The translations under genes and the position numbers were made by a program. This document shows positions 16,449 to 62,411 of a stretch of DNA of 64,000 nucleotides, piece after piece. The notes beneath the pieces were generated by a model. That model saw only the letters and a program-made list of their open reading frames with translations, had not been told where the DNA came from and did not search any database. The stretch comes from Sipunculus nudus (taxonomy: Eukaryota; Annelida; Sipuncula; Golfingiida; Sipunculidae), in contig CM049306.1 in the NCBI GenBank assembly GCA_026874595.1, positions 96,773,642 through 96,837,641 of the forward strand. The letters are read 5' to 3'. Every line of letters starts with the position of its first letter. Position 1 is the first letter of the stretch.

Positions 16449-16649
16449 CTATACAATTATAGATAGGAAATATAATATCGTGATAAGTTTAACTGATCCT
16501 GTATCGATCAGAATACCAGACTGCACCTGGAACTGCTGGTGAAGGTCTGGGGAGGACATAATTGTTTGGTCATACTCTTCCACCCCATAGACCGTGGTTC
16601 CACAGTGATGTGCTTCCAGCAAACACTCGTGGATGAAGATGTATTGACT
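16449..16649 (-). CDS. Gene A last exon: PTP C-terminal part and stop
   Basis: The acceptor is TTTTAG|AGTCAATAC. It encodes SQYIFIHECLLEAHHCG, the conserved Q[Y]IFIH..LLE block that follows the PTP signature. The frame then runs to a TAG at 16451-16449. A GT lies after FQ (exon end would be 16527), so splicing to a further exon is possible, but no D2 exon is visible below. Read-through gives a 24-residue hydrophobic C-terminal tail. Confidence 0.8.
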   Translation of the reverse strand, partial: SQYIFIHECLLEAHHCGTTVYGVEEYDQTIMSSPDLHQQFQVQSGILIDTGSVKLITILYFLSIIV

Positions 16650-19196
16650 CTAAAACATTTCAGATTTCTACATGCGTCACACAGTTATACTCGCAATTAA
16701 GATAATTGTGAAGTAGATTGTAATTTTTAATATAAACTTGTTAAGAAATTCAAAGTAGACATTTCTACAGTAACTTATTTATTTACCGGGATTTTACATA
16801 TCGGTTGCTAACGTGCATGTTATAGCAAGACCGTAATGTTTCGTATATGTCACGTCAGCCATTCAATGATAGCTCTTTATACATATCATAAAAATTGTAT
16901 GGTTAAACTGACAAGGCTCTGGACCATGTTGACTCGTTGCTGTCTCATGACGTGCACACTTTGTGGAACATAAATTCTACCCTCTTCTTTGGCTTGCTTC
17001 AACAGGCAATCAATGACAAGAAACGTACCTGTGCAACCGACCCCGGCGCTTCAAATAACACATGTAACCATTGACATAAAAGCCCCTATTCTGAGGAAAG
17101 TGCCTTTTTCAAGAATAAGTGTATATGAATCTGCTCGGAGGAATCAGGGCCTGATTTTTCTACAAAAAAATTTTAGAGAGTTCCAGCAGCAGATAAATGA
17201 AATGGTTGTAGAAAATTTACATTGCAAACTGATTTGAAACACCTTCCTGAGAATATGTAAACGCTCTTTTTGCATTTATAACAGTTGCTTGCAAAATACT
17301 TTTTTCTTTGCACTGACGATTTAATAGTAAATTCCAGCACATTCTAGTTCACCTGCAGTCCACGACAGTTGGTCCAATCCTTGGGTGATGGTGCTGCATG
17401 GTCTGTCTGTAGAATGACAGGAAGGATGCCGGGTTTGTGGGGATGCCGTGGTCAGGCCAGGACACGAAGTGAAGCTGTGTCACTTGGTGTTCATCTCCAC
17501 CCTATTGTCATATAACAATAATTGGTATTTAATAATTGTTTGTAGGTGATAAAAGAAAAAAAAACAAATTCGTCCCCACAGGTTTGTTATATGGTTTGAG
17601 TTACTATTCGTTTCCACAGTAAAATATTTTTTTTCAAATTAATAAAATGTTCATAATATAATCTTCCAAAAAAAAAAATCAAGCCAACTTAAAAATTTCC
17701 CAAAAGTATATTTTCCTTGTCTCTCCCTTTAAGTATGTATACATGCGTTTGTGTGCGTGTGGGGAGGGATTGTGTGTGTTGGGGGGGGGGGGTCTTTCAA
17801 AAAATCCTGTAATTTATCGATAAGGATATTTTTCTACCTGTTTGAAGACCATCTGTCTCGTAGTGTAATGAGGCATTTGAGTCTCTGAAGTGGTCGTGGT
17901 GGTGATCCGTCCAAACTTCTTAGACATGCCAAGATCAGGCCAGTATTTCGTGCATTTCTCCTGGTAACGATTGACATACTAATTACAAAAAATCATTACA
18001 GAGATTTGCATAAACTTAATTTAACTATCATTCTCTTGGACATATTAATCTATCCATCTGCAATATAACTGACAACATGACAGGAAACCAACACGCGCCA
18101 GATATATGTAAATTCATACTGGTGTGATTGTGTATATTTTCCAAGTTAGAAATTGTAAGTAATATTTAGCAACGGTACAAATAACCACACATTTACCTGT
18201 CCGCCCTCTTCAAGACTGGTTACCATAACAACCAATGGAACCTTTTGCTCCCAAAGCATCAAAAGAAAACCATTCAAGGACTCGTTGTTTGGACCTGGAA
18301 AGGAGATACATGCTTCTAGAATAGCCATAAAAACTTTATCTATCTCGAGTATAGGTTAATGTAACAGAAGCTTTAAGATTGAAACCTGTATATACAAATA
18401 TCTGGCCAAAATACGTGAAATATTAAAAAATGACCTCTGTTAACAGTTCAGGTGATTCATTTTAGAAAAAGTATTTCAATTGAAAACTGACCTTGTCCTG
18501 CTATATATGTTTTCCTTTCGTCATAGGCCTGAAAAAAGATATCAGATGTAACAACCATTCCCTTAAAAATAATAGTATGAGCGATAATTTAAGTAATTTC
18601 GTCAAAACTGATGTGGTTTATTTTAAACACTCACGTCAATATGGCTTGCATTGATGTAATCACCTGTACATCCGGAGGACAAGATAACTCTGTTTCGATC
18701 ATCTGACAGACAAAATATTCAAATCAAGAAATATGAAGTTTTTAATTGATAAAGCATTACCCAGCCGAAGATGCACTATGTGTTATATGCAAGGAATTGT
18801 AGTCCAAGCTTTATTGATCATTTACCTTCCTTCAGACGTTAACGTTACATTTTAAAAGACATTCTACCTTGAAAAACACATCAAATAATGTCAAACGCAT
18901 GCATGAACCTATTTAAAATAGAATAAAAATAAAATACAGAAATAAACAAAAGATATTATGATATGATTAACATTAATGAATTTCTAGGTATTTACACTTA
19001 ACTAACGATCGGTGTCACACACAACTAGAATGAATATGGTTTCTGGTGATTTTGTTTGAATAAAAACTTGCATGGTATTATGTTTTTAAACCGATTCTGT
19101 TTCCGATGCTGAAGTTCCATGCCAACAGCCTGAGAAGCAACTGGTTCTGAGCCAATCCCCTGGAATATTATTGATCATGATATTTTATTATAACAA

Positions 19197-19271
<75 letters not shown>

Positions 19272-22200
19272 AGTACATACATAAGGCCTGGTAAAGTTTT
19301 TTTGACAACAATGCAGTGAAATTTATATTGTAGTAGCTTGGAAAATGTGTTGATTTAGTTAGCTCATACGTTAATTAGGGTATTTTGTTAAAAAGGGAAA
19401 ATTATCCAGTATAAGGATTATCGGACACGGACCTTGAATTCTTCGTCAACTATTTGTTCATTTCCGAGAAGATGAACCATGTATTGAGGGAAATCGGTCA
19501 CTTTCACTGAAGCCTGCAAGTTCTCATACAATACCTCTTCTTCTCGCTGGCAATGTCTGCTGTTTTGAAACATTTCTTATTCTCGACCTACAGTTTATAC
19601 AAATAAAGGTAGTATAACCAACGGAAACTTTTATTTAATATTCGCTGTCAACTTTTATATTGCACATTGTGGAGAATATCATGGTCATATTATATTTTCA
19701 AGTCTCTATACGTTCTACATAAGGTGCTTTATTTATTTATATATGGAACTGTTTTACACAGGAACCTATCTAAAACAATATAATAAAAATGTAATATAAA
19801 CTGCAATGCGGAATGAATGATTAGTTGGTTTTCGTAGTATTTTGCTTACGTATTTCGATTTTATGAAATAGAACGTCCTGATACGTTTGTTTTAAATTAC
19901 ACTCCATTCTGTAATGTAACTTTCAAGGATGATCAGGATTAACACTTACTGTTTGAAGAGTCCTTCCGTAACTTCCTCCAGAACCGTGGGTTTCTTTTTT
20001 TTATTTGAATCCGCCAATTTGAACAACAGAAATAATATTGACATTATGAAATTGCTCAACTTGAATTTGTTGCTTCTTTTTATTTGAAAAATAAACATTT
20101 AAATAATAACTATATGCGTTTGTTAATAACATTTATTAATTAATGTTAATTATTATGAATTTTTATCGTTCTTTTCGTTTATTATCGTAAAAAGCATGAA
20201 GTGTTAAAAATCTAATCACATTATTTCACAGTTTGGAGGACCACTTCATTCGATTTCTTTTTTAATTAATCTAAATGGCAGAAACACTGACACCCATTTA
20301 AACTAAACACCATGTGGTCAATCACATGTTTGTTATATCATAAAGTTTACCGGATACATGCCACCAGCAGCAGAAGACCAACCAAGAGGCAGACACAAAG
20401 GACAACAGGAACCGGTATTGAGGCTGACTTATGAAAAGGTTTGAGCCCACTTTTTACTTGAAACAGTATAAAAACATTATATATTATATATACTGTATAT
20501 TTATATCCATGCCAACCATTTATTATTTACAAACACAGATTTTTAGCAAATTGAATGCGAAAGCTGAATTTGCATGGAAATATTTATACATGGTCATGTT
20601 TCAGATTAGTTATCTATCTATCAAATGTGGCTATGCATGATAACATCAGTGATATGTTATACAATGCTACGTTATATGTCAAATTAGGGTTCCATTGATA
20701 CCAAAGTATCCATCCTTGTATCGACATTGTCCTTATGTTCGTTTACATTTTAAGTGACACTTTTCTGAGCATAAGTTCTCGCAGAATTCTCCATCGCGAT
20801 CATTGTTACATGCTGTATGAGAGTAGGCAAAATGGAAACATTAGAGAATGTAATACATTTATTTAAGACGGAAATCATGTTGTTCAAATCCGATGTTTGG
20901 TCTATTTAAGGTAAAGGTGAGTGATGAAAACGGATAACGACAAACCTTCACATCTGCTTCCTTTAAATTCTTCTCTGCACTGACATCCCGTATAATTCTT
21001 GGTACACGTAGAGTTGTCACAGCCAGACCAGCAGGTCTTCTCACATCAGTCACCATATCTACCGGGTGAATAGCCCACACATATTCCACTCACTTGATCA
21101 CAGTTAATCTTGCATACTAACGGACAACCCAGTGTGCAGTTTGATCCATATTTCCCGGCTTTGCAGTCTGTATAATGTGTACCTTTATCAAAAGGCTCAT
21201 TAAAATTACTCATCTGATTTATCATAAGAATAAACAAATCATAAGAATAATGTTTTAAAATTTACCGTGAACAGTAAACATACGTCAAACTTTATAAGTT
21301 ATTATGTGCCTGTTATTCTATTCTCCCAGTATATTAGAATTATAATAAGCATGGAAAGCTTTGACCAATAAAAACCGTGATATATTATTTAAAGCTCGAG
21401 GCTAAAATAACTTATATTTACTGAATTTTTTAATCCATAATAAACATACGAGGTTTGAGACTGAATAACTGTAGTGTTCATCCCATGACAATATAATGAA
21501 CCTCGAACTCACAGCGTATCTCCTCATTTGTCCCCCCTGTATTCTTCCTTACACAGGCATTTTCCGGTTGTTTGCTTACAGAAAGCGTTACCCTGACAAC
21601 CCTTTCCACAACTTTGATTACACCGGAGGCCATAGTACAGAGGTTTGCATTATGGACATCTACCAGTCTGTTTATTGCAGATTGCAGATCCCGGAACAAT
21701 GGTCAGGACAAGTCCTCTTTCAGTCGGGTCCGTGTCTCCCATCACTACATTCTGTACATGGAAACTAGTCATACGATTGAAATGATCGTGAAATTGTTCA
21801 CAATCAAACGAAATTCTTTTAATATCAATTCATTCTCTCATTGAATGGACAAACCTTTGCATTCCTTCCCATCGTATCAATCCTTACACTTGCATGCTCC
21901 ACTTAATTGGTTACAGCTTCTGTCAGTATGGCATCCCTTCTCACAACGTTTTTTCACACTTGACACCATAGTGACGCGGGCTACATGCAGGGCATCGACC
22001 CGCCTGCTTGTCACAGGCCCCTACTGGATAGGACAGGTCATCGTGCAGTTGGTCCCCTACGTTCCATCAGGGCAAACTAGTTAGAACCAATGAACGTAGA
22101 TGAAAAAGTAAGGTCGACTTTATATTTCTCATAGCGACAGACTTTGTATAAAGAAGTATACACGAGGATTATAGGCATACAAGTATAGCTATAAATAAAC

Positions 22201-25200
22201 GACAGCTAATTTATAATGTCATCAATATTTAACCCTCTTCTCTTAGAAAATAAAGAGTTGTTTTCATGTCATCTTTATACAATGTCAGATGCAAACCTTA
22301 CCTTCATGACAAGTGTCCGGCTTGTATCCATCCTTACACCGGCATTTGCCAGTCGTTTGCTCACAGGTACCGTTACCCTCACAACCCTCACCACAGTGTT
22401 TTTCACACGTAAGGCCATAGAAATGAGGCCTGCATGTCGTACATCGACCGGTCTTCTTATCACAGTATCCAGACCACGTGTTGGAATAAGTTCCGTTGCA
22501 GGTTGGGCCGTACCGGCCATTACGACAATCTAAACACATCTAAAAAGAACATGCGTCAAGCTATTTCTAGAACTGTGCCTTTGTAGTTCAATCTCAGATT
22601 CAATTTTCTTGGTGTTGCAATGTGTGCTTCTCTTCCATACGATACCTTTAAGTTAACTAATACTTCATTCAAGCGAGAGACGTAATGCTCACCTTTGCAT
22701 AGCGGGCCCTGGTAGCCATCTTTACAGGTGCAATTTCCTCCACTTTTGGAGCAAGTTCCTTGACGACAACCGTTACCACATTTATGAACGCATCGGGTAC
22801 CAAAGAAACCATAACTACAGGACAGGCAGTTTCCACGTTGTCTGTCACATGATGCAGCACAATTTAAAGGACATTTACGCTTAAATCGTCTACCACACAA
22901 TCCTTCATTGTTTCCTAAAATACAAGTAAAACCGTTTAGGTCCAAAGACTACCTTTGTAATTCTCAAAATGCAGTTGGCCTCGTTTATACGGGGGTACAG
23001 GTGTACACGTTTTATTTGTACACGAATTATGAATAGTTAACATTTGATAATATAAAAGTATAGCTTTGTTCTAATCATGTCACACGCCTTTTTTTATTGT
23101 AACCTTCTTATAACTATACAGGATATAATACATTTAAATTATAATAGTATACTTTTTCCGACAATATATCTGACCAAACAATAGATTTTTTACACAAGTA
23201 CTAATTCAAACAATATCAAGTTGTTAACATACTAAGCATAACGTTGTCTGTCTGACTGTCAATTTAAAACTTTGACCGTAACGTAGTGCAAACCTTTACA
23301 GTTTCCTGTATTCCTATCACATTGCCCGAAAAGATAGCTCGAGCAGGTCGTCTTGCACATGTCTCCAAATTTTCCTGACGAGCATCCTGTAATATCTATT
23401 AAAAAATGTAATAGAATTAAAAAGAATCTCCGTAAATGAAAGTGCATGCTCTGTTTCTGTTCCATCTGAATGCATCCCTTACTGAATAGAATTGTGCGAC
23501 GCACAGATCAAATTACTTGTTAAAGAGGCTCAGTATATGTTGCATGAGATCAGTGTTAATCATAATGGCTCACACCTGGATATGAGACTTTGAGGCCTTC
23601 AGCTTAAATCTGAACGGATAACTTAATATCACAGCTATATCATAAAAAGCAGATCACCGTCTTCAATGCGTGCTTAATTATATGCTGCAGTTCAGCACCA
23701 TTGTGCCTTCGACGCCCAACATCCTGTTGTAGGCCATACTTTGATTTTAATGGTTGCTGAGCCTCTCTTATATCCGTTAGTCACCCAAACAGGTTGTTTG
23801 TATATTGCAGTTCATCCTGACCTTTTTATTTGCAAATAATTATTTATTCACTGCATACATGACCTGTATAGAAGGTCAGATTTCCTGAAATGATGATTAT
23901 GAAGGCGGGTTGTTTTCACGTTGACTAACATTTCTCTCATGTTAGATCCATATACACACTTCCCAACAAAACGGGGATCTCCCCTGATCCGTGTCCCACC
24001 CTCCACAGAGATACTTGAAAATTGGTTTGCAGGTTTGACGTAATTTAATAAATAAAAATATTTTCCTTTATCATATCATCGGTCACCTTATGCCCCATCC
24101 AGGCAGTCTGAATGTAATAAAATCAACTTTTAAAAGAAATGACATGTCCGTACTCTTTTCAATAAAATTTAAAACAATTGACAACGATTTAACCGCTAGG
24201 CTGCATCCAACACCTGCCCCTTACAATTAAGGCATTATGTCTGACATATAAAAACTTATACTAGTCCAGTTCATAAAAGATCCGATGACCTCACCATAAC
24301 ACATATGCCGGTAGTTCTCTGGCAGTACCTGTGTGTTTGTTCGCAAGGGTTTCAAATTTGCGAAATTCACGAAGGAAAATCATCGCAAAAAAACATCATA
24401 AATAGGAGGCCAATCGTCGAAGACAAATCAAAAGACAAACAATTGAATGATATCCATAATCAACCTTTGCCTTTTAAATTATATAAGACCTAAGTATTTA
24501 CAAGGCAAATCAAAAGGGAAACGATTGAATTTTACCCGTATCGACAATAATTCTACCTCGATGTTCCCTTGATAATCCATCCGACTGTCACAGTTTTCGT
24601 ATATATTTATAATTAATTATATTAAAATGGATATCTACTTTATGTAGATATTTTGTGATTGTTTCCCTGTGTAAACAGCCCTGTGTAACAATGGAAAAGA
24701 GGAAACCATGAAAATTTAAACTCATGAATATAAAGCCAGCCACAATATCTCTTTACGATTTTTTTATCTGTATGTGGCTGTTATAAAACTCTAAAGTATA
24801 AGTATTTATTCAGCAATGTAACAATCTTTTGTGTATAATCACGTTTTCTTCTATCATCAAAATTTCATTCTACTTCACATCCAGTTGTAGTGCTTACCTT
24901 TACATGTGTCCGACTCGAATCCATCCTTACACATGCATCCTCCATTTTCTTGATGACAGGCGCTATTACTACGACAACCCTTCCCAAAATGTTTCCCACA
25001 CCTCGATCCATAGTAACGAGGTTTGCACACTTTGCAATGACCTGTCGTCTTATTGCAGGCCCCGGAACACTGGCTAGGACAAGTTCCTTTGCAGCTGGAT
25101 CCGAAATTTACGTTCAGACAATCTAATCGCACCAGAAGAATGACAATAGAAAAGAAGTATACTTTTGCATATTATAAAAGGAATACATATGCATCGTTAC

Positions 25201-28200
25201 AAAGTAAACATCGTGATATTAAAAGTAAAGTGAAGAGGGATATAAATGTCCAGTAAAGACATACCTCTGACATCAACAGAAAGTTTTTTCAGTGTTTACT
25301 TATTAATAAAGAAAAGGATAGAGTACATGTTTCTATGATTAATAATGCTTTCATAAATCGTTATCCTCATTCAGTCTAAAATCGTGCGTCTCAAAATTGT
25401 GTTTCGTACCTGCACTTTTTCCTTACATACACATTCTTACACGTGCAAGTTCCATATGTTTGCCTACAGGCGCCGTCATCTTGAAAAACCTTGCTTGCCG
25501 CAATATTTCTCACACCTGGATCCATAGTAACGAGGTTTGCATGCATTGTATTGACCATTCGTTTTATTACAGGCCCCAGAACACTTGTTTGGACAGTTTT
25601 GTTGCAGCTGGATCAAAATCCTCCATCATGACAATCTGATGGCATCAATAAAATAACTTACGTTTTTTGAATATTTAATCAAATATCATCCATTTCTATA
25701 AAGCTTAAAATAATAATGGTCATTTTCACGACCCCTGTTCATCTAGATTTTTTTTGCTATTATTATTGGGCAAGTCAAACTCTCAAAAAACACTTGTCCC
25801 AAGCACAGATAGGTGAATAGCAAATAAATAATCAGGAAAAATAACGTATGCAGGGGCAGTGGAGAGGGCTATAATATGTAAAGAGGGAAACAATCAGCTG
25901 AGATATACCCACTAAGTAGAATTTTCCATACTGACACAATGTGTTTTACTATGCATGGGTTCCAGTGAAAATGATGCTCAAACAAAGAAAGCAATCAGTT
26001 TGCCTCAGGTGATGTTGTCTGTAATTATATCGTTCACCTTTGCATAGCGGGCTCAGGAAGCCGTCTTAACAGTCACAGGTGCCGTCGTTTTTGTCACAAG
26101 TTCTAGTACCACAACCTTCACCACATTTTAGTGTACAATTTATACCGAAAAAAAAACACGTTGGCAAAACCAGAAGTTCCGTTTCTGTGACAAAATCCAT
26201 CGCAATATACTGGACAACTATGTTGACAGCGTCCACCTTACCAGCCTGTCTTGCACTCTGAAATAAGTATTTTTTAGGAAAAGCAACCCCTTTAATTCCC
26301 CTACATTTATACCACCGCTCTGTTGCGTAGGCCCATACAGGTCAGTCTGGTTTGGAGGTAAAATAGATAAATCAGCTTAAATACAGCTCAACATGTGAGG
26401 AAAGTCCAATTTTTTTTTTTTTTGATTAATGAAAGGATAAGCAGAAAATACTTTTTTCCCACCTAACAGAGGGAAAGCCACAACAGGTGGAGCCATTTCC
26501 AGGCAAAAAGCAGTCAAATAAACAATATATCTGACAAATTTGATAATGATTGGTGCAGCGGTACATGGGATAAATGGTAACAGGCTTTGAAGCATTGACG
26601 CGAAGATGTGAAAAAATAAGAGTTCCGTGGAATCATCAATTTCAAATTAATTCTATTCAATAAAATCTTCATTTTATTCTTTGTCTAATATATATATGCA
26701 TATAAATATTGTTAAATTTCCGTGCTTAAGAGTATTTAACACGCATTCTGGTAATTTTACAATATAGGTTGACTAACCATGCGTGCAATGTCCAGAGTAC
26801 CTGTAACAGGATTTGTCTGTTTATTGCACCCTGATGGACATATCCTGTCGCATGTTTCCCCGTATTTCCCAACGACACAGCCTAAAACATAAACCCAGTA
26901 ATGTAATGTAGGAACTTTAAACAATCATGATACCCTAACTTTGAAGTGTAGCCCCACGAAACATTGAAAATGTCCAAATCTGCCGTCACGACAGGCTCAT
27001 CGCATCAGTAGAATGACTTTGCATTTAATTAGACATCGAGATTAATGTTACGCAATAAGGAAGCACATTTGCCTGGTTACTCTATCTTTAACCTCTCATA
27101 ATAGTAAATAAATTGCTATTTTGACACACCTGACCATCATACAGGTACTTATAAGCCATTCACTACATCAGCTATCAAGGCACTAGGTGTTAAGGCCTGT
27201 TTAAAGAATAGATGACGTTTTTAAACTTAAGAATAATGACATATTTCTTTCTTTTTTTTGCGAGGCCTTTAGGGAGCTTTTGCAATATAAATATTAATAT
27301 ATTGTTAAATTTTCATGCTTAGAGTATCTAACACCTTCTGAATCTGAGCACAAGATAATTTTACGCTTTACGTTTGACTTACCATGGGTGCAATGTCCGG
27401 TGTTCTTGTCATAACATTTTTTTTTTTTGCCCAATGCACCGTAATGGACACATCTTGCTGCATGTATCTCCGTATTTCCCATCGACACGTCCTAAAATAT
27501 AAACTCAGCAATGTAATGTAGGGACTATAAAAACAATCGTGACAAACCTCGACGAAATCCCATATATTATCCTGAACAATATGATTTCTCTGTTCAATTA
27601 TACTAGTGTAACTTTCAGACTTGCATATTACACTTTAGTTTGTAATTGTATCACGAATCACGGGATATTGATTTATGGGAATATATTTCAGTTGTGAATA
27701 GGTTTCAATTTTTATTGTGATTTCGGTTTTTAATAATGAGTCTAAGACTCTTGTTTTTAATGATTCTAACGATGTTTTAGTTGCTCAGAATGAGCCATAA
27801 AATGAATAGCATGGTCAAGAGGTGGCTTTTAACTAAATCTTTTTTTTCCCATTATATCATTTGCATTTTTAACTGTGATCTCTAGTCCCACGAAACATTT
27901 TAAATGGCCGATTCATGTTGCTTTATTTGATTTCAATCTAGATGCATATACAGGATCATATTTTCCTGAAGTTGATCGGTCTACAACGTTGTCTTTGATT
28001 CAAACGTCTGCATCCACGGTCGAAGAGTCATGAATCATCTTTAGGGTTTAATCTCAGCTGACTGTAAATCATCTGAGCTATACAGATCACCCTTTGTCCG
28101 GTCAAATTCATCCATATTTTATAACTATAGGGGGAAAATGATTTGTGTACCCTAAATGTAGGAAGGGCACAAATTTTGTCCATTATTCCTAGAATCTGCT

Positions 28201-29406
28201 AACGCAACATCCAGGGGGATTTTTAGCAATTCTTCTTCGAACTGAAACTAATCAAAATTCTGCGAGCTACGGGCTAAAGACATGATTTCGAGCACCCAGG
28301 CAGTCAGACAGGGCACAAATTGTATCTGGTAGCTCTAAAATCCTCATATATAAATTCAAGGCATTCCTTAATAAATCTCCTAAAAGCCTATATTCTTCAT
28401 GCTACGCGTCATAAATATAACTTGAGCACCACGAACGTTAAATGATATGAGCACAAATTGTATGCCTTAAGCCCAGAATCTTCTAACATCAATATCCAGA
28501 GAGAACCTGGGAAAATCCCCTTGAAAATCTAATATAATGTTATGGGAACCTATATTTTGCGGGCTACTGACAAAAACCATGATTTCGAGCAGTCAGGTAG
28601 CTGTAACCAATTTGCTAAAGATTAAGGGAAAAGAGCACATTAATAATTAATAAATCCACCACTTGTACCTTTAACTTAGCTGTGCGACCCATGGACCACT
28701 TGTTTTTTATCTATACGGTAAAGCAAAGGGGAGCCTACATGAATAACTGTAACAAATAAACCTTCAGAAAACCCTTAAGGATTAAAATATTTTTCATATG
28801 AGAAAAAAAATTAGGGATAATTGTGTGTTCACGTTTTGTATGTTGATATTTATAAAAAAAACCTTGTAAATACACTACAGGAAGTAAATTCTAACTTCGA
28901 TGTATTAGAGGATAACCAGATTATGTCAAGAAATTGTAAGCAATATAACCGACAAGTAAAATAATGTGAGATTATATCAGCTGCTCGGTTGAGTTCATGA
29001 GTGTGAAGAAACTATCTTTAACAAATACAGATTCAATTCTTCTTTATAATAATAAAAGGCTATTTCTTGAAAGGGAGTTGAGGGTAATGTCATTGTTAAA
29101 AACTTTATGATTTGTGAGAAAGGACTCGAAATTTATGCCGCCATGTTGCAAATGCACCTATAACAATAGACTTTTGACAAATAATTAAATAATCATACAC
29201 ATATCAATCCAGTATATAAACAGAATGCAATAATAGGCAGATCTATTTACCCTCCGTGCAGTGACCAGAATGATTGTTGCATTGTTTCACCCTTGCTCCA
29301 CACCCTGCTGGACAGGAAAGGTCACATTTGTCCCCATACGTCCCATCAACACAACCTTACATAATAAGTAAGGTTACATTTTCCTGTCCTGTATTTTTCA
29401 AATACA

Positions 29407-33014: not shown

Positions 33015-33241
33015 TTATATTCTTTTGATTTCTTCATATTCATCAATTACATCCTCTTGGTAAGCGGATGAGTCCTCGCCGTATTTGATCGCCGTGTGTA
33101 CCAAAGACGTATAGACAGGAATGGCGTCTACTCTGATGTCCTCATTTATGTAGGTGACGTCAGGGGGAATCGTGTGATAAATGACCTCATCATTTTGCCT
33201 GCTAAGTTCTTGGTAGTTCATGGTCATCTCACGAGACTCTT
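33015..33241 (-). CDS. Gene B last exon: cytoplasmic tail with ITAM-like motif
   Basis: It reads EESREMTMNYQEL, then SRQNDEVIYHTIPPDV, and ends DEYEEIKRI-stop (TAA at 33017-33015). Seven Tyr lie in 75 residues. YQEL and YHTI are eight residues apart, matching YxxL/I-x(6-12)-YxxL/I. Acceptor TATGTAG lies directly against a (TA)n array, with almost no normal pyrimidine tract. Confidence 0.85.
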
Positions 33242-33286: not shown

Positions 33287-35559
33287 TTTACAGTTTCAGC
33301 ATTACTTGGTTTACTGTAAAATATGCCTTCCAAACCGCCCATGCTGTATGAAATTTAATGGTTAAACAGAAACAAACATCATCTGATAATATCAGTGTGC
33401 CTATGTCTAATATTCTGTTTGGATTAAAAGTTCGATTCAATTAAAATGTTATATAAAAGTAGTGTTTTGTCGATAGACTTTCTTACCGGTAGGAACATTA
33501 GCTTGTTCTGTTTCTGATTGTCTCTCTTTTCTGTAAATGTAAAATATATCGTTATCCATAAATCAGACAAAATGATTTGATAAGTTAGAGTTAGATAAGT
33601 GAGATAAGAAGATAAGTTGAAACGATATCATTTTAAAGCAGAGTGAAAACGAAGACTTTGATTCTATTCAAAGAAAAGAGAAATATATAACGTTAGACTT
33701 TAGCCCTACCTAAAGCACTTAATATTTTAGGCCGGTGTTGGTGAATGAAGAAATAACCCTTAAATATAGTACCATGATTCAGATAGAAGAAGAGCTCTGT
33801 AAAATGTAAATATAGGCTAATAGTGATTAAACGTTGAAATCATGTATGCACTCTTTGTAATTCCTCCGACAACAATGAGTGTTTATATGATCAATCTTGT
33901 ACGTTAATCAATTCAATCACAACAAAATGTAGAAATCGTTTAAAATTGTGCATTAGGAAGAACAAATGTAACATTTTAAAATTAGAATGTTCTATCAGTT
34001 TAGCTATACATTAGCTTGGTGGTATTGCTCACTTATATGGCCACTTATGACGGATGGAGGAAATCGTAGCAAGGTATCTTTTAAACTGTCTGTGAAAAAT
34101 TACACAGTCATAGCCGAACAAAATACAAATACCATGAGTTACATTTTTTTGCCCGACACCATCAGTGGGTGAAGAGGAACGGAATGGTGTCAATAATCAC
34201 CTTAACTAACACAATTTCTCTACAAATTGAACACATCCTGCAGTTCTTACACTGGACCACACACATTCCACCTTCCAATTCATATTACCTTTTGAATAAG
34301 TATAAAGCTACGGCCGATCCAAGTAGAACTGCAACAGCTAAGATAACTCCGGCTCCAATGAGACCACCTGTCATCCTATCGCTAATCGAGCTTTCTACTG
34401 AAACGCATACAAATAAAATTTGTCAAATAAATGAAACTGCATCAAAACTGATCTTAACAAATTAGCCCGTAAAGGTCATTCTCTGTAACTATCATATATA
34501 CCTTGTAGCCATCGTATGGATGAGCCTGGCACGATCAGTGACCCGATCAATGCCAGGAAAGTCTTTTAACAAACTACATAGCTTATTTACAGAATATCCT
34601 TTGGTCTCGGAACCAAAATATAAATATAAGGAGACAAGTCTTCAGTAAAATCAAACATATATGGGTTAAACTGATTTTTTTGTTGTTTTTAAATAGAGCA
34701 CATAAAATTGAGATTAAGCTATTTCTCTATTTCCCTGAAACAAAAGTTGAGAGAATTAGTCGTTTCCTCAGCTCCCTGAAATCTTGCAACCTTTCGCTAA
34801 AGCCCGATTACACAGATTGCATGTAACATGTATTGATTCACAGGTTTTGTGCATAAATAAATAATCTGAAATGTAGTTTAAAATTAACTAACTTTGTAAA
34901 ATTATAACTTAAATTTGTTTCAATCGTCAATGTCTCTACATTTACAAAATGACAGAAACCTATATCATTTTTTTTGGACAAGGTTCAATGACGCTTGATA
35001 AAAGCTCGTGTCTGATAACCAAAGATCAACTCCACAGCTAAACGCGATCTTATTCAATTCTAATTATGCCACTTATTCTTTTTTGATAATGCAAATTAGA
35101 AATGAGAAATTTATTACCCGTACACAGACGGCCCTGGAAGCCGTCTCTACATAGACAGTATCCGTTGTATTTATTACAGGTCCCCTTCAGACAACCTTTG
35201 CTGCATTTCTGCTCACATCGATCACCAAAGAAACCAGGAATACAGGTGAGACAGTCCTCACTCAGTTTATTGCATGTTTTGCATTTTTCTGGACACATCA
35301 CTTTGTCACAATTCATTCCGGAATACCCTTTCTTACACCCTAGAGAGCAAAATACTTAACACTGATTTTGATTAAACCTATTCACATTTTGTTACTCTTA
35401 AACGCTGCAAAATACCTGTTTAAAATTTTAATTTTAAATTGTGTTAATCATGAGCTACAACATTATGATTAGCTACAAATTTTATCTCGAAGATTCATTT
35501 CAATGACCTCATAACCAGTATTATGAATAATTGCCGTTTCTTCTTGTTAGCTTAAGTCC

Positions 35560-35635
<76 letters not shown>

Positions 35636-43299: not shown

Positions 43300-43341
<42 letters not shown>

Positions 43342-44399
43342 CTCTGAAGAAAAACAACACTATTAATTCACAACAGACTGTTTCACGGGATGCGACCCGA
43401 TCATCAGGTGAATGTGGTTAGAATATATATATATATATATATAAATCATTAATCTTGGTAAGCCACAATATATTTCGAAAATACGAAAGTAACTCACGAA
43501 AAATGAAAATACACGGATTTGTATGCGTGAAGAATCGTGCCGATTAATTAAAAAAATATATATTTTTTGGCCAAAAATCACGTCTTTATATGTTAAACGC
43601 TCAGCCTACCAATATGGCATCTGCCACTCTGCCGACATAATCCGTCAGTGCAGTTAGCTGAACAATTGTGCTCGCATCTATCTCCATATTTGCCTTCAAC
43701 ACAACCTGAAAATGATACATGTATATATGCACACGTAAATGTATATTTATCCGTGCCATCACAATTTAGACCATGGAACAGAGTACAAAAGATCAAGCTG
43801 GGGAAAATTTTAAATATTTTAATTACAAAATATAGACTGTTGATGAAAAAAATAACTTGTCTTTAGATGTCAAACGCTCAGCCTACAAAGTTGTCATCTG
43901 CCACTTCGTAGACCATGGAATATAGTGCAAAAAGATTAAGCCGAAAGAATAATTTTTTTTAAGAAAATAGGACTAAGCCTGAGTTCGCAAACGTCCATCG
44001 TCTCTATCAAACTGCTTTGTCTCCAAACGTTTCCATGCATTAAATTTAACAAGAAAGAGAAAATGGGGTTCCTGTAAGATAGATGTTACAATCAGGTGCA
44101 CGTGAGTATTATCTGGTACATCTGGTGTATTATCCGACATACCTTAAAAGTGATCACACACATATATAAACACACTTATATAATTTAGAATAGTTCAAAT
44201 TGTACACATCAGGTTTATTTGTATTTATATAACTTTCATTTAATTTTTCAATCATTCTCTATTTCTCAAATGAAACAAAATAAAGATTTGAACTCACCCT
44301 GCATACAACGACCTGTTTGTCTGTGGCAACTTTTTGTTCCAAAACAAGTCTGAGGACACACTTGATTGCAGTTGTCTCCATACTTCCCGTCAGGGCACT
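33015..44399 (-). CDS. Gene B: MEGF10/Draper-like EGF-repeat receptor with ITAM-like tail
   Basis: Fourteen open EGF exons, a TM exon, a linker exon and a final tail exon join in consistent phases into about 780 residues, with the N-terminus missing. The ectodomain mixes single modules of 31-34 residues with 60-73-residue double modules, as in MEGF10/11, Draper/CED-1 and SREC. The tail of about 90 residues has seven Tyr: YQEL-x8-YHTI (ITAM consensus), VIYHTI (ITIM-like), YINE (pYxN type) and a terminal YEEI. Family members act in phagocytosis and pattern recognition; that role is inferred here. Two extra EGF exons are dead (38488, 40743) and one is a remnant (38881). No signal peptide exon was recognised. 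Confidence 0.85.
33244..33282. repeat. (TA)n array abutting gene B tail-exon acceptor
   Basis: About 19 TA units end two bases from the acceptor AG on the minus strand. Confidence 0.95.
33487..33530 (-). CDS. Gene B juxtamembrane linker exon
   Basis: It encodes KERQSETEQANVPT with one split base at each end. It joins LYLFKR from the TM exon to EESRE of the tail. Acceptor TTTACAG, donor CCG|GTAAGA. Confidence 0.82.
34289..34397 (-). CDS. Gene B transmembrane exon
   Basis: It encodes VESSISDRMTGGLIGAGVIL then AVAVLLGSAVALYLFK, a single TM helix followed by basic residues. Acceptor TTTCAG in phase 1, donor AG|GTAATA in phase 2. Its length (109 bp) and phases equal those of the gene C TM exon, supporting common ancestry. 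Confidence 0.9.
35118..35339 (-). CDS. Gene B double-EGF exon, membrane-proximal
   Basis: It reads CKKGYSGMNCDKVMCPEKC...CIPGFFGDRCEQKCSKGC...CLCRDGFQGRLCTG. All expected Cys are present; phase 1-1, 222 bp. Confidence 0.9.
35561..35629. repeat. (TA)n microsatellite in gene B intron
   Basis: Pure alternating TA of nearly 70 bases. Confidence 0.95.
36132..36353 (-). CDS. Gene B double-EGF exon
   Basis: It reads CNDGKYGENCTLRCPEAC...CPNGKYGDRCERTCFPGC...CECREGFQGLRCEG. It is the intact relative of the nonsense-bearing gene A exon 20946-21167. 222 bp, phase 1-1. Confidence 0.9.
36850..37071 (-). CDS. Gene B double-EGF exon
   Basis: It reads CKPGLYGPHCKATCPLNC...CRPGFFGKRCTEKCGEGC...CHCRNGYKGPQCKG. 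Acceptor ATTTCAG. The frame happens to be open upstream of the acceptor to an ATG with a hydrophobic start; see findings. Confidence 0.9.
37323..37418 (-). CDS. Gene B single-EGF exon
   Basis: CTHGKYGENCNKTCPGC then CDRKNGECTN. Six Cys, 96 bp, phase 1-1, donor G|GTACGT. Confidence 0.88.
37641..37739 (-). CDS. Gene B single-EGF exon
   Basis: CQAGAYGEKCNKICPLGC then CNITNGHCIK. Six Cys, 99 bp, donor G|GTAAGT. Confidence 0.88.
37864..37962 (-). CDS. Gene B single-EGF exon
   Basis: CIRGRYGSTCKDKCSSYC then CRRTTGKCSS. Six Cys, 99 bp, donor G|GTAAGA. Confidence 0.88.
38488..38586 (-). pseudogene. Gene B single-EGF exon with lost donor
   Basis: CSNGTYGEKGNMTCSSGC then CNRTSGHCTK. The frame is open, but the second Cys is Gly and the donor after AAAG reads GAAGGC instead of GT. 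Probably not spliced in. Confidence 0.75.
38881..38905 (-). pseudogene. Truncated remnant of an EGF exon
   Basis: After a normal acceptor (TTCCAG) the sequence reads CIRGRYG, identical to the start of exon 37864-37962, then similarity ends at once. Confidence 0.7.
39456..39677 (-). CDS. Gene B double-EGF exon
   Basis: CETGMYGEHCKNSCPAKC...CRPGFFGNNCSQKCGEGC...CICKDGYRIPHCKG. 222 bp, all Cys present, donor G|GTATGG. Confidence 0.9.
40076..40258 (-). CDS. Gene B EGF exon of 60 residues
   Basis: CLEGRYGTDCKQHCSGKC...CLACENGYYGYKCKLPCGRGC...CTQRAGDCT. It is shorter than the other double modules. Acceptor AATCAG, donor A|GTAAGA, still phase 1-1. Confidence 0.85.
40743..40833 (-). pseudogene. 5'-truncated EGF exon
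   Basis: CCGEGCRYGNCTQKRGNCKC then KNGYKGQTCK matches the second half of the 222-bp exons and has a good donor. The first half is replaced by intron-like sequence, and the only nearby AG gives the wrong phase. Confidence 0.75.
40981..41076 (-). CDS. Gene B single-EGF exon
   Basis: CRPGKYGEICQFTCLNC then CNQTYGVCTQ. Six Cys, 96 bp, donor G|GTAGGT. Confidence 0.87.
41543..41644 (-). CDS. Gene B single-EGF exon
   Basis: CIVGKYGDECNMSCSSGC then CDKKSGHCVH. 102 bp; close relative of exon 42665. Confidence 0.88.
42665..42769 (-). CDS. Gene B single-EGF exon
   Basis: CIPGKYGYVCNMTCSSGC then CDRISGHCLK. 105 bp; probably a tandem duplicate of exon 41543. Confidence 0.88.
43126..43230 (-). CDS. Gene B single-EGF exon
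   Basis: CIDGTYGDTCNKSCPAGC then CNRETGHCAH. 105 bp; resembles gene A exon 29251. Confidence 0.88.
43290..43443 (-). repeat. (TA)n arrays with a retroelement-tail-like segment
   Basis: Two TA arrays (43290-43341 and about 43422-43443) flank a segment that reads on the minus strand CACCTGATGATCGGGTCGC...GTGAAACAGTCTGTTGTG. The CACCTGATGAT motif before a TA array recurs as CACCTGACGATG near 58085. This is an interspersed repeat end, class not assigned. Confidence 0.6.
43610..43705 (-). CDS. Gene B single-EGF exon
   Basis: CVEGKYGDRCEHNCSANC then TDGLCRQSGRCHI. 96 bp; intact relative of broken gene A exon 29548-29644. Confidence 0.88.
44298..44399 (-). CDS. Gene B most upstream EGF exon found
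   Basis: CPDGKYGDNCNQVCPQTC then CHRQTGRCMQ. 102 bp, phase 1-1. It needs at least one more upstream exon for the start codon and signal peptide, not recognised between here and gene C. Confidence 0.87.
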
Positions 44400-47480: not shown

Positions 47481-48382
47481 TATTATACACATCTTCCTGC
47501 CCTCTCATTTTAAATGTAATACGTGTAACACATGATTAATGCCAAAATGGTTTTCTTGTCTGTATTTAATTTTTTCAGTATCTAAAAAAAGTAAAATAAT
47601 AAACACCCAATACCATTTTTTGTAGCATTTCCATTTCCCTCTGGGATTTGGAACGTCGGCTTGCCGTTAGGTCCATTGCGCCGATTAGCAAAAATATAAA
47701 TGTACGGGATTGTGACAATTGGATACAACTATACATAATCTGACGTTTTCGGTGGAGGAACCATGTTGAAGGGAATTCCATTTAAACAAGATAAATTTAG
47801 ATTTTACTCGATGCAAAAAGTGGCCCCACAATTTTCATCTTAATCAGATATTAAAATGTTACACACCAAAATAAAAAAAATTCTTGCACCATAAAATCGA
47901 ATAAATTTTTTAAACAAAAGGAGCCAACGACACACATGTTGCAAATAAGAGGTGACTTAATAGGTATTTAAACTCAAAGTAACTGGTTAATCAGACAAAC
48001 TGTTACTTCTTTTATATAATAAGAAGTTACTTTCACCATTGCATAAAACAGAGCCATATATCCCAAGGATAAACACCATTATCAATACTGCACTCATTGT
48101 GTAATGAGTCTAACATAGCTAATGAGTAAAACCGCCGTCCGTCAGAGGTAGTTTATAAGCTGTGTTTACGTAGACACGTATTCTTGACTGCATCAGCCTC
48201 TTCCCATCTATATCTCTGTCTTAGCCGATAACTGTTCCAACACAACCAGGAACATGAACAAGGTTATATCTATATAATCAGCGAGAGATTAGATAATTTT
48301 ATTTTAATATTGTGGCATGGTGGTTATTCGTCACAAGTGGTCTCACTGATATGTTACACAGCACCTACAACCTCTGATATAA

Positions 48383-56583: not shown

Positions 56584-56828
56584 TCAGATGGAGAGAGGTC
56601 TTGGCTTCTTCTTTATATCTTTGAGGCCACTCTCTCCTTTTACCTTGCTGACAGGTTTTGCTGCCGCGATGGTTTGCTCTACCATTTCTGCAGCTCCAAT
56701 TTTGTTCATGTGCACTTCGTCATAAGGGTGGGGGACGTCAAAGGAAATAGTGTGATACAGGACTTCATCGTAATGCCGGATTGGTGTTAAGTATTCATCA
56801 ATCAGTTCGGGCGGGTCAAGTGGAGACA
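56584..56828 (-). CDS. Gene C last exon: cytoplasmic tail
   Basis: It reads VSPLDPPELIDEYLTPIRHY, then DEVLYHTISFDVPHPYDEVH, and ends KKKPRPLSI-stop (TGA). VLYHTI fits the ITIM consensus [I/V/L/S]xYxx[I/V/L]. The Tyr aligned with the first ITAM Tyr of gene B is kept (EYLTP), but Pro replaces the +3 Leu. Acceptor TTTTGCAG in phase 1. Confidence 0.85.
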
Positions 56829-57855: not shown

Positions 57856-58129
57856 TGTATGAATACCCATGCTGGTTCATTGTTTTTTTTATAGATGGAA
57901 AGGGTATACACAGAAAAGTGGTTCACTGCCAGTGAAATCCCACTGCCATTGAAATCCCACTGGCATATATATAAATATATATTTATATATGTGTGTATGT
58001 AAAGATAAAGAGTGACACCTTTTAGATAGACTAACTTGTTTATTAAGACACGAGCTTTCGAACCGCACAGTCTGCATCGTCAGGTGGTATGTGGGAACGT
58101 GTTACCACTTATTATTCATATTATTATTA

Positions 58130-58179
<50 letters not shown>

Positions 58180-59866
58180 ATAAAAGAATCGAAACAAAAT
58201 AAAAAGGATATATATTCACTGTTCTGCTAGAATAACTGTCTACTAAATTTGGTCTAAAGGGAACCGAGATGCATGTATCCGTTTCCAAAATTGCATTTTC
58301 ACTTTAATCACAACATACCATGCAGCCGTGTGCGTTGAACCTTCCTTTTCCTGCAAGCAAATGTTCGATATTTTAGGTACATGGTAATGAAATACTGATA
58401 TGTGCTTAAAGGGATCCTCTAAACTTTTATTAGTCGAGCTGAATATTTTAAAGTGGGTCACGATTTAAGTTCTTTAATATGTAACAAATATTTAAAACGG
58501 GTAGATAGATATTAGGGTTTTTCAACATGACGATTACATACTTTTTGTGAAGTAAGAATGTGGCGACAATCATCCCGACACACACGGCTCCTGCCAGAGT
58601 CGCCCCGAAGTCGATCATCCCACCCTTTATTCTATATGTAAACTCAGTTTCTGGAAGATTTGTATTGTCACACTTTTCACGGCTAATATTTTTGGACAAA
58701 GCAACGTAGATTTCAAATATGTGACCAAGTGTTTCAAAATCATGTTCATATATTGGACAATGTAATACTCTATCACGTGAGATCAATCTAATTATACTGA
58801 TACGTGCACAGACATATATAATGAAGCCCTGTTATATATGGCTAACTATTGTATTATTGTCCTAAACATTATGTTATAACCCAAACACAAAACAAGTCTT
58901 ATTTTAACATAAGAAAACTGAAAAACATTAAATGAAGGGAGAGTCCGAGACGATGTTTTAAATAAAAAATACAGAAGTTGTAACAATGCAGCAGCTGTTA
59001 CTTGTACTAATTAAGACATGAAATTACTGTTTATTAGAGATCTTCTTATTTACTTTAAAATTATTGTACTACATGAATTTGATTGGCATTTGAACAGATA
59101 CTCCAGTAAAATATCAAATCCTGAATGTATAGAACTTCTGTCATGACACTGATTAAGCCTATGAATTACTACCTTGGATACAGGGGAATCCGGTGTGACC
59201 ATCCTTGCAATAACAACGTCCGTCTAGTCTGTCGCATGGCAAATAACACTTCTTAGGACATCTGCTTTCACAAAGCTTCCCAAAGAAACCGTTCCTGCAT
59301 TCTGTGGGGGTCATTATATAGAAGGTAGAGGCAAGATGTCATTTCATACCAACTGAACTAATCATGGCAATGGTTCCGACAATTTGGATAATACCTGAAT
59401 ATCCAGATATACAAATATGAAAAAATTATTATTCAGTTTTTATGTTTTATAAATATATTATGATCCTAACACTTTTTTTCTGATACTTTCAGGTTAATAT
59501 TATGTATAACATTCAACCATACTGACCTTCACATTTGTCCGGGTTGAATCCGTCTGTACAGTTACATTTCCCGGTAGCTTGGTTACAGGAAACGTTACCT
59601 TGGCAACCCTCTCCGCATCTTCTCTCACACCTTTTGCCATAGAACCCATGTCTACATGCTTGACAGTGGCCTGTCCGCTTGTCACAAGGACCACTGCACA
59701 TATCAGGACAGTGTTTCCTGCAGCTCGGTCCATATCTGCCATCACTGCATTCTAGTGGTGTTTTGAAAGCTCAACATTGTAGTGGTGTTTTCAAAGGTCA
59801 ACATTATAACTTAAGAATCATATCTAAATCACTTTATATTACTATTCACCTCGAAACTTTATTAAG

Positions 59867-59920
<54 letters not shown>

Positions 59921-62411
59921 ATAAGAACAATGGTTCTCCAATTATCAACAACAAGAACAATGGTTTAGCCAATGACATGCGTACATCAAATGGAGGAACG
60001 TGCCTGTGGCGCAGACTCGGACTCACAAGAGTACGACTCTGCTATTTAGGGTTTATGACCCCCACAATGCACCGCGGCTTCTAAGTGAAGTGGGTAATGA
60101 TGTCCGTTCAAAGATGTTAGACTGATATTTTTTCCAAGGCGAAGTACATATTACAATAAGTTATATTTTGTAAGCATACGCATGTGAAATATAAAAAGAT
60201 GTTCCCTTGAAAAGAAAAAAATATTGATCTTTAGGTTTGGCAGCTGAGACAAGTATATATAGTCCTGGAGGTCCCACAGTGCCTACCATGAAGAGATCTG
60301 TTTCAAGCAAATACGACCTCTGGGGAAGGGTGGGTACGTACGTTGTTGTGCCATTGCTGCATATAGGACTATGCAACGGACCAGATTGCCTGTCTATCCC
60401 AAATAGGTTTTATAGGATGACAAATGAGCAAGTAGTTTAAACGGTGTCACGTCCATGCCAGGTAAGTATTATCATCACGAAGTAACCCAGAGACAAATAA
60501 AATCGAAATTTTCACCAATAGGAATTCGAGTGTATATGCTCGATAACGCTTACAGCAGATTACATTTATTAAACATTCATTGTTTCCACTATCGTGTGTA
60601 CCTAACTCTTGTGAGAGCTAGCCACATTAATTGTGCCTTGTATACAGTAAGCCACCTCTCGACAAAGTCTAAAGTGACCGCCTTTACTTTAGTCTTAGTA
60701 TGCGTTCCGCAAAATCGATTTGCGCTACATTAGTTTTCGATGTAAACATAACATCAGGTATAAATAATACATTTTTTCCTTTCTACTGATATCTCCAACC
60801 ATATACGATCAGAAGTGATAATTAAAAGGCTGTCTTAAATGAAATATATTCCTTTTTTACAATACAGAAATGGAACGTCAGATCTCGACCCTTTGCTTCA
60901 CATTCTCCCGACAAGGCGTTTTACTATTATCCATTGCCTCACAACACACCGCCTTAATGACTCGTGGTTTCAGCAACTCTAAGGATGCATGACAGGGTCA
61001 GTTCATTGCCTTTCTTCGCGATTAAAGCTATATAACTGGTCACTTCTTGTTATAAATCATAAAGAGTTTCATTAAACATAACATATCACAAGGAAAAGTC
61101 AAAATATATGTGAAAAACACGCACTATCATGTGGCAGCGACTTTGGGGCTATGTGCCCGCCTCCTTGTGTGAAAAGTATGTACCGCTCACTTATGCATAG
61201 TTTGAAGGCTACACTGTCGATTAATACATGATTCATACAGTGAGTATATGAGAAATCAAGTCTAATAAATAAGAGTTCACGTCACAAACTAATAAAATAA
61301 ACAGCCTTAAATCATTTACGATAATCATCAATATACAGAGCAGTTATCTAGCGTGTTTTACTGTCACATCGTGCCATGAAGATTCCTCCCTTCATAATGC
61401 AACAAGTTTCCATGATTTTTTTTTTTTTTTTTTGTATTTCTGCGTCAGGTCCCAAGCCTAGTCTACCACACTGTTCAGGTACACTTCGCGCTGATCCAAC
61501 GATGCACAGACTATCCGTTTTGTTTATATCCACGTGTTTGTCACATAGAAGCAACTGAACCCTGCTTGCCTTAACAATAGACACATTCCAGGTAATCACT
61601 TGACAAGAACTGAGTATGTTCAGCATTTTCTGCTGATATGCTTCGTGAGCAAGTAAGTCACAGGAAATAATAGAAAATAATATGTATCACGCTGTTACTT
61701 TGCCTTGTTTCCACGACTAATGCTAGTAAAACCTTTGGGTCTATTGCAATTACTATTAATATCACATATTAAAGGCTATAATAGTCTATTACTATTATTT
61801 ATTAATTACTATTACCCCATGTTTGAAGGTGGGCCGCTTAAATGGCCGATGTTCGTAACCCAAACTGATCCATCCACGGCAGGAAATCTGACAGCAAATT
61901 AGACGAACCAGAGGTTTGATAAAGACAATATATATTGCGTATAGCTTCACGTGCTTGCACCAGCAAGAACTAGAGGCCATTCAACTACGGACATTTATTA
62001 TGTTTGTCAACAGGGACACGTTTTCATTGTTTACTTAAAGATAAACTCTCTCATGTATATGTGCGGTTTAAGATATTTCCTTTCATTAATTACCTACAGG
62101 TCATTAATGCGTTTTCAATTCAGAAATCCCATAATTCTACAAGTAAGTCAGGTGGATAACTGGCTCTAAGTGTGAGCTGGTAAACTTACCATTACAAAGC
62201 TGTTTGAGGTATCCGTTCTTACACAGACATTGTCCATTTGTCTGATTACAAAATTCCTCACGGCAACCGTCGCCACATCTCCGGGTACACTAGTGTCGAA
62301 AGAAACCCAGGTTGCAGCTCGAACAAATCCCCCTTCTTTTGTCACATGATCCGTTGCAATGAATTGGACACGCTTTGTCACACATTTGACCATACCATCC
62401 CAGGATGCAGT
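56584..62411 (-). CDS. Gene C: EGF-repeat receptor with ITIM-like tail (5' part outside window)
   Basis: A paralogue of gene B. Three EGF exons (62190, 59527, 59173), a 109-bp TM exon (58542), a 32-bp basic exon (58319) and a tail exon (56584) join in consistent phases. The tail of about 90 residues contains HYDEVLYHTI, aligned without gap to NDEVIYHTI of gene B, and ends in a basic segment. The most upstream EGF exon has an in-frame TAG, so it is either skipped (phase 1-1) or the gene is failing. The rest of the ectodomain and the start lie above 62411, probably outside the window. Confidence 0.8.
57810..57940 (+). repeat. (TA)n array with flanking repeat
   Basis: The TA array 57810-57853 is followed by CTGGTTCATTGT and GTATACACAGAAAAGTGG, the same flank as at 52785. 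It lies in the large gene C intron before the tail exon. Confidence 0.75.
57985..58177 (-). repeat. Retroelement-tail-like segment and (TA)n array
   Basis: On the minus strand CACCTGACGATGCAGACTGT, TTCGAAAGCTCGTGTCTTAA and TAAACAAGTT follow a TA array (58138-58177). It has the same design as 43290-43443. Confidence 0.55.
58319..58350 (-). CDS. Gene C juxtamembrane basic mini-exon
   Basis: It encodes KRKVQRTRLH with split codons on both sides, in the position of the gene B linker exon. Acceptor CTTGCAG, donor G|GTATGT. Being only 32 bp, it rests on phase and splice-site agreement. Confidence 0.72.
58542..58650 (-). CDS. Gene C transmembrane exon
   Basis: It encodes ETEFTYRIKGGMIDFGATLA then GAVCVGMIVATFLLHK, a TM helix. 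Acceptor TTCCAG in phase 1, donor AA|GTATGT in phase 2; 109 bp like the gene B TM exon. Confidence 0.87.
59173..59301 (-). CDS. Gene C membrane-proximal EGF exon
   Basis: CRNGFFGKLCESRCPKKC then CDRLDGRCYCKDGHTGFPC. 129 bp, phase 1-1. It is the intact counterpart of broken gene A exon 20702-20812. Confidence 0.87.
59527..59751 (-). CDS. Gene C double-EGF exon
   Basis: CSDGRYGPSCRKHCPDMC...CRHGFYGKRCERRCGEGC...CNCTDGFNPDKCEG. 225 bp, all Cys present. It is the closest intact relative of gene A exons 22302 and 21520. Donor G|GTCAGT. Confidence 0.9.
59752..62189. other. Gene C intron, about 2.4 kb
   Basis: It holds a (CT)n run at 59871-59918. No further EGF exon was found, so the spacing is much wider than in genes A and B. 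Confidence 0.5.
59871..59918. repeat. (CT)n microsatellite
   Basis: Pure TC repeat of 24 units. Confidence 0.97.
62190..62411 (-). pseudogene. Gene C double-EGF exon with TAG stop
   Basis: CILGWYGQMCDKACPIHC...CNLGFFRH then TAG (62292-62290), then CTRRCGDGC...CLCKNGYLKQLCN. It is otherwise open over 222 bp with good splice sites. One base separates it from a normal exon, so a sequencing error or a polymorphism is possible. Confidence 0.8.

Follow-up and report, generated by a model that had tools for sequence, protein, structure and literature searches.

A 64,000-nucleotide window of the Sipunculus nudus genome (C1:96773642-96837641, C1 being contig CM049306.1 of assembly GCA_026874595.1; 1.43 Gb in 153 contigs) appears to contain part of a partly decayed tandem array of one family of receptor tyrosine phosphatases (RPTPs) with MEGF-type ectodomains, a reading that we hold with a probability of about 0.7. 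Units C, B and A lie in the window, all on the minus strand, and units C' and A' lie upstream of it. Under this reading, A' has kept an intact phosphatase active site, B is a short-tailed receptor, and A and C are decaying. Judging from its sequence, B is most likely the working product of the window, and A' its nearest phosphatase sister. Window coordinates are used throughout, positions above 64000 being outside it; flanking sequence was covered as well, 40 kb of it to one side and 100 kb to the other. Exon joins and phases in all units were read from genomic sequence.

EGF exons were located with a profile derived from eight unambiguous examples, with matches retained up to E 0.05, and phosphatase exons with a profile built from eight protein tyrosine phosphatase (PTP) domains of the same genome. 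The scan for transmembrane (TM) exons was restricted to phase 1 to 2; it also lists scattered other matches, many of them simple repeats, and a stricter setting returned only B. Unit B reads as follows.

48097-33015, minus strand: unit B, nearly intact, with signal peptide, 16 EGF exons, TM exon and short tyrosine-rich tail
48031..48097, minus strand: exon 1, coding for signal peptide MSAVLIMVFILGIYGSVLCN, with a phase-1 donor; A' has a homologous exon at 109931
35118..44399, minus strand: ectodomain of 16 EGF exons, phase 1-1; two damaged, the other 14 open in frame and with both splice sites
34289..34397, minus strand: TM exon, phase 1 to 2
33487..33530, minus strand: juxtamembrane mini-exon, phase 2 to 1
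33015..33241, minus strand: tail exon with YQEL, YHTI, YINE, PVYTSL, EYEEI and stop; conserved core YxN..PVYTSL..EYEEI

When the signal peptide, ten EGF exons, TM exon, mini-exon and tail of B are joined, they give an open frame of 646 residues. The damaged EGF exon at 40833-40741 has lost its 5' part relative to A', and that at 38586-38492 lacks a donor and one Cys; being of phase 1-1, both can be skipped in frame. The PTP profile found no match in B or C, and the B tail scored below the cut-off of every Pfam family. Pfam found no EMI domain in the 646-residue product or in ten stretches running from signal peptide to EGF exons (eight of B, two of A'), and no galactose-binding domain in the same ten stretches, with the proviso that small exons may be missed in such a search. 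Between the signal peptide and the first EGF exon, B (47728-47585) and A' (109190-109033) share a conserved open stretch with GKPTFQ in B and GRPTFQ in A'; it recalls the start of a galactose-binding-like domain and, having no Pfam match, serves as a lead only.

A genome search with the tail found relatives at C1:51.538 Mb (E 8.7e-4) and C1:51.652 Mb (E 0.04), with a reverse search at E 0.0015, and both of these tails have EGF exons upstream and a TM segment. A third relative at 79.12 Mb carries a stop (E 0.6), and weak further matches were found at C1:51.4865 Mb (E 0.04) and C7:29.54 Mb (E 0.45). YxN, PVYTSL and EYEE are invariant across the tails of B, 51.538 and 51.652; the tyrosines of YxN and PVYTSL are present also in the stop-bearing 79.12 Mb tail, EYEE[IV] is found in three of the four, and Y31, N33, P42, V43, Y44 and L47 are among the positions invariant in all four. 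Between B and 51.538, synonymous divergence (dS) is near saturation at 1.84 and non-synonymous divergence (dN) is 0.47; because their ratio (dN/dS) is only 0.25, the B tail seems to have been under constraint. The ratio for 51.538 against 51.652 is 0.53. Searches of solved structures with the B tail returned nothing meaningful; matches to gp41 (best E 2.3e-6) were taken as chance, arising from the Gln/Glu-rich stretch that follows YTSL.

The phosphatase arm of the family is represented by A', just outside the window. Its first PTP domain (D1) consists of eight open exons with an intact HCSAGVGRTG loop (Pfam E 2.2e-72), and its best solved relatives are PTPRA (6uzt, E 3.7e-102) and PTPRS (3sr9, E 9.4e-102). 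Profile matches to D1 and the second domain (D2) extend over 89819-81278. Together with an EGF ectodomain and a single TM segment (91260-91155), the tandem PTP domains would make A' an MEGF-type RPTP, on joins that are predicted. Both splice sites are present in 20 of its 22 EGF exons, one of the others being frameshifted (93.23 kb) and one having its donor beyond the scanned range (99.43 kb). At 102.7-105.9 kb, a unit of about 614 bp that holds one short EGF exon is repeated in about five tandem copies with 93% identity between neighbours, as if the ectodomain were growing exon by exon. PF00102 has at least 153 matches in the genome, with scores computed for 150 of 496 candidates. The P-loop, searched as an exact DNA pattern, has 57 matches, many of them clustered on C2, C6, C13 and C15, with receptor and non-receptor PTPs counted together.

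The exon frame links the two arms. The same order of phases was read in five units, namely two RPTPs (A' and the one at 51.68 Mb) and three short receptors (B, C and the one at 51.65 Mb): a TM exon of phase 1 to 2, a mini-exon of phase 2 to 1 and a next exon entered in phase 1. That last exon leads into D1 in the RPTPs and ends in a stop in the short receptors. These shared phases support the view that B, C and the RPTPs belong to one gene family. The arrangement also recurs: C1:51.64-51.70 Mb contains a short-tail receptor with an EGF-bearing RPTP downstream of it in the same orientation, as A follows B in the window. A third instance is perhaps C1:79.12-79.18 Mb, where 53 kb separate a tail from a PTP match on one strand.

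The initial annotation had described three same-strand EGF units with phase-1 TM exons, and both features were recovered by our profile and phase-restricted scans. Within the window, minus-strand EGF exons occupy 62.4-59.2 kb (C), 44.4-35.1 kb (B) and 29.4-20.9 kb (A), with TM exons at 58650-58542, 34397-34289 and 20456-20351, respectively. The array extends beyond the window to A' (about 109.9-81.3 kb; EGF exons at 108-91.7 kb) and C' (about 126.8-120.6 kb; EGF exons at 126.4-123.1 kb), and EGF exons at 145.7-138.0 kb represent either a further unit or 5' exons of C'. The stretch 109.0-126.8 kb matches 47.5-62.8 kb piecewise at 79-97% identity, and the duplicated block stops near 62.8/126.8 kb. 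Segmental duplication would thus have produced the array C'-A'-C-B-A, in order of transcription. The signal-peptide exon of B (48097-48031) is homologous to that of A' (109931-109865); the scan gave no convincing signal-peptide exon for A or C, and a candidate lies at 139890, upstream of C'. Also upstream of the array, a stretch at 148974-148855 with VHCLQGINRSG (E 0.013 to the PTP profile) resembles a dual-specificity phosphatase, a family name that is our reading of the sequence.

The ectodomain exons of B and A' can be matched pairwise, and eight compared EGF exons together have a dN/dS of 0.57. Their synonymous divergence is a mosaic: three of the eight (B 40.26, 37.07 and 36.35 kb against A' 95.37, 92.90 and 92.18 kb) have a dS of 0.04-0.07, and the remaining five 0.24-0.58. 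Because divergence is so patchy from exon to exon, the mosaic suggests patchy gene conversion between B and A'.

Unit A is a relic of a tandem-domain RPTP, read as follows.

29355-3546, minus strand: unit A, relic of a tandem-domain RPTP
20690..29355, minus strand: ectodomain of 13 EGF exons, of which 8 are broken; stops interrupt the frame at 21652-21650 and 21048-21046, and the last exon, near 20.8 kb, has one as well
20351..20456, minus strand: TM exon, phase 1 to 2
16913..19507, minus strand: PTP D1, 8 exons, frame open; loop DCSAGVGCTG
3546..16249, minus strand: PTP D2, four exon-sized profile matches, open; degenerate P-loop CRYGVELSG

The count of 13 EGF exons includes the last, near 20.8 kb, which the profile did not report, and several broken exons appear as two profile matches each; stops or frameshifts were read in 8 of the 13. 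The initial annotation had assigned A a PTP-like domain, which stands (D1, Pfam Y_phosphatase E 3.6e-63), although the unit is larger than described and its catalytic loop is altered. Profile matches cover D1 (18709-16907) and D2 (16249-3546), ruling out a phosphatase unit that ends at 16449. The D1 frame is open over 792 bases in eight exons. Its loop keeps the nucleophile Cys, with His changed to Asp (codon 17360-17358) and the phosphate-binding Arg to Cys (codon 17035-17033). The acceptor of the A mini-exon is AA in place of the AG of A'; the donor of D1 exon 2 is GC; and a TAA lies at 19579-19577 if the canonical acceptor is used. A lacks the P-loop Arg and reads as a decaying copy. Against A', D1 has a dS of 0.58 and a dN of 0.17, and because the ratio is 0.30, D1 of A was constrained for much of the time since the two split. 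Changes polarised by the 51.68-Mb RPTP number 23 synonymous and 38 non-synonymous in A, and 20 and 25 in A', over 215 of 258 codons with the outgroup shortened at an internal GT. A 63-bp minisatellite adjoins the last D2 exon in both A (3763-7786, about 64 copies) and A' (81369-83272); on the minus strand its unit reads RYGVELSGLF..., the start of that exon, so that the exon edge seems to have been multiplied.

Unit C is likewise damaged.

62185..62411, minus strand: C EGF exon 1, interrupted by TAG at 62292-62290 where C' has CAG
59173..59751, minus strand: C EGF exons 2 and 3, profile matches
58542..58650, minus strand: C TM exon, phase 1 to 2
58319..58350, minus strand: C juxtamembrane mini-exon KRKVQRTRLH, phase 2 to 1
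56584..56828, minus strand: C tail exon, with VLYHTI

No signal-peptide exon for C passed the scan in 62.4-80 kb. Because the duplicated block ends near 62.8/126.8 kb, C lacks whatever lies 5' of that point in C', its tandem copy 64 kb away. C' itself is frameshifted twice: one base has been inserted in EGF exon 2, and the TM exon shows a net loss of 8 bases. The C tail has one other copy, 91% identical. A comparison of C with C' over 234 codons, leaving out the TM exon and mini-exon, gives 4 synonymous and 17 non-synonymous changes (dN/dS 1.09); the corresponding counts for the 80 tail codons are 1 and 8. On this evidence, C is a 5'-truncated, stop-bearing copy without constraint relative to C'.

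The initial annotation had further proposed that the B and C tails are alignable, that B gives an output resembling an immunoreceptor tyrosine-based activation motif (ITAM) and that C gives one resembling the inhibitory counterpart (ITIM). The alignment holds up (score 68, reached by none of 500 shuffles), and the C tail does not align with the 51.538 or 79 Mb tails. The functional division was rejected: the ITIM-like hexamer is present in both tails, as VIYHTI in B and VLYHTI in C, and arises in 31% (B) and 25% (C) of composition-preserving shuffles. C thus has the motif expected of an ITIM receptor, but shares it with B, and carries a stop and a dN/dS of about 1. The pair YQEL-x8-YHTI in B fits the ITAM-like pattern YxxL-x8-YxxI, which occurs in 3.9% of shuffles; YQEL and YHTI are not kept in the relatives of the B tail. 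No NPxY motif is found in the B or C tails as read.

Our data are consistent with a model in which the ancestor was a single-pass receptor with many phase 1-1 EGF exons and a cytoplasmic part that was probably a tandem-domain RPTP. A' would have retained the phosphatase with its D1 active-site loop, B would have lost or replaced the phosphatase exons, with the short tail now filling the same exon slot, and A and C would be decaying copies. Were the ectodomain of B engaged or clustered, a Src-family kinase could phosphorylate YINE, PVYTSL and EYEEI, and the phosphorylated tail might then recruit SH2 proteins. A co-expressed A'-like RPTP sister with a related ectodomain could remove those phosphates. 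The ligand, and any role in blood cells, are conjectural in the same way.

Several observations weigh against this reading. Two of the 16 EGF exons of B are damaged, and the 646-residue join takes up only 10 of the 14 complete ones, leaving four outside it; the exon joins of every unit are predictions from genomic DNA; and the decay of A, with its long-constrained D1, may be recent, or A may still be in use. Derivation of the B tail from a truncated D1-start exon, as the shared slot would lead one to expect, was not established. Against the same-slot exons of three RPTPs, the B tail gave z-scores of -0.3, 1.6 and -0.1 (B and C together, -0.3 to 2.0), and a profile-profile comparison of tails with RPTP exons gave P 0.084 and a probability of 0.7%. 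The stop-bearing 79 Mb tail did score against two of the three RPTP exons (reached by 1 and 2 of 500 shuffles), with 108 of 500 for the third.

The damage to B could mean that every unit of the array within the window is dying, B included as a non-functional relic, surrounded as it is by the damaged units A, C and C'. We consider this improbable: the B signal peptide, 14 EGF exons, TM exon, mini-exon and tail are all open with splice sites in phase, the damaged exons can be skipped in frame, and the tail has a dN/dS of 0.25. It is also unlikely, to our mind, that B and A form a single gene with a choice of 3' ends, in which the B signal peptide and EGF exons would be spliced either to the short tail or past the broken EGF exons of A to its TM exon and phosphatase, yielding tyrosine-tail and catalytically dead isoforms. 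Such a gene is permitted by the phase 1-1 EGF exons, whose skipping keeps frame; there is no convincing signal peptide between the B stop and the first EGF exon of A; and it would account for a D1 that stays open over 792 bases at a dN/dS of 0.30, with four open D2 matches, yet follows an ectodomain in which 8 of 13 exons are broken. However, the path to the phosphatase is damaged too, at the mini-exon acceptor (AG to AA), by the TAA just inside the next exon, at the GC donor and by the change of Arg to Cys, and at 51.66 Mb the RPTP comes with a candidate signal-peptide exon of its own, independent of its short-tail neighbour.

The picture originally drawn, of three functional immune receptors with an activating ITAM-type B, an inhibitory ITIM-type C and a phosphatase A, now seems very improbable. 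The ITAM-like pair of B lends it some colour, as does the precedent of the Draper ITAM and the Draper-II ITIM that acts with Corkscrew (PMC8092387). Set against these are a C with a stop, no 5' end found and a dN/dS of about 1 relative to C', a decayed A with a changed P-loop, and a B that has the ITIM-like hexamer itself and whose YQEL and YHTI are not kept in its relatives. With two of the three window units broken, these two should not be counted as receptors. What the decaying-array reading does preserve is one EGF scaffold, in tandem copies, some of which bear a short tyrosine tail and others a PTP domain. The idea of paired receptors survives in altered form only, as a short-tail receptor beside an RPTP sister, recurring at C1:51.64-51.70 Mb, and without the activating/inhibitory split.

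From this recurrence we offer a tentative, and still doubtful, generalization: animals with expanded MEGF-RPTPs may have a second arm, made of short-tail sisters in the same gene frame, on the same strand and upstream of the RPTP, with the core YxN-x(8)-PVYxxL-...-EYEE[IV]. One related ectodomain would then serve both phosphotyrosine-bearing and phosphotyrosine-erasing receptors, a self-contained pair that works through a phosphatase domain instead of ITIM docking. If short-tail sisters that share a conserved phosphotyrosine core do adjoin RPTPs, the natural substrate of the expanded phosphatases may be their own neighbours.

Parts of this arrangement are familiar from other animals. The D1 of A' is a receptor-type PTP domain like those of the vertebrate RPTPs PTPRA, PTPRS and LAR. 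Vertebrate RPTP ectodomains are Ig/FnIII or short and glycosylated, whereas that of A' consists of EGF repeats. Paired activating and inhibitory receptors of vertebrates combine related ectodomains, tandem genes and different tails, as do the units here, but our array has no intact ITIM member, and the sister's output is a phosphatase of its own in place of a docking motif. B resembles Draper, MEGF10 and CED-1 as an EGF-repeat single-pass receptor with tyrosine motifs in a short tail. Drosophila Draper signals through an ITAM with Src42a and Shark, and its isoform Draper-II carries an ITIM to which the phosphatase Corkscrew binds (PMC8092387). An EMI domain, present in Draper, was not found in B, and the exon frame of the B tail is that of the local RPTPs. 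In oysters, agranulocytes express over 40 RPTPs together with dozens of receptors of the Draper family (PMC13070813).

The closest parallel is SudRes1 of the snail vector Biomphalaria sudanica, a region that combines MEGF ectodomains with tandem PTP domains; 10 of its 23 genes code for MEGF domains, and its variants are associated with resistance to schistosomes (PMC12297450). As described there, it shares with our array duplicated gene clusters, EGF repeats, a single TM segment, tandem PTP domains, copy-number variation, EGF-domain loss and other MEGF genes adjoining the RPTPs; its three RPTPs each have a galactose-binding domain, and none was found in the ten stretches searched here. The main text of that paper (PMC12297450) mentions neither ITAM, ITIM nor SH2, and short-tail sisters may exist in the snail as well. 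Given the SudRes1 and Draper precedents, neither the MEGF-PTP fusion nor activating and inhibitory outputs on an EGF scaffold is new as such. Within the accessible portions of the literature on mollusc RPTP, MEGF, Draper and ITAM/ITIM, no short-tail MEGF sisters on an RPTP frame were found. What appears to be new here is the presence of short-tail sisters beside the RPTPs, with a conserved phosphotyrosine-like core, in a family that by analogy resembles a snail receptor cluster tied to parasite resistance.

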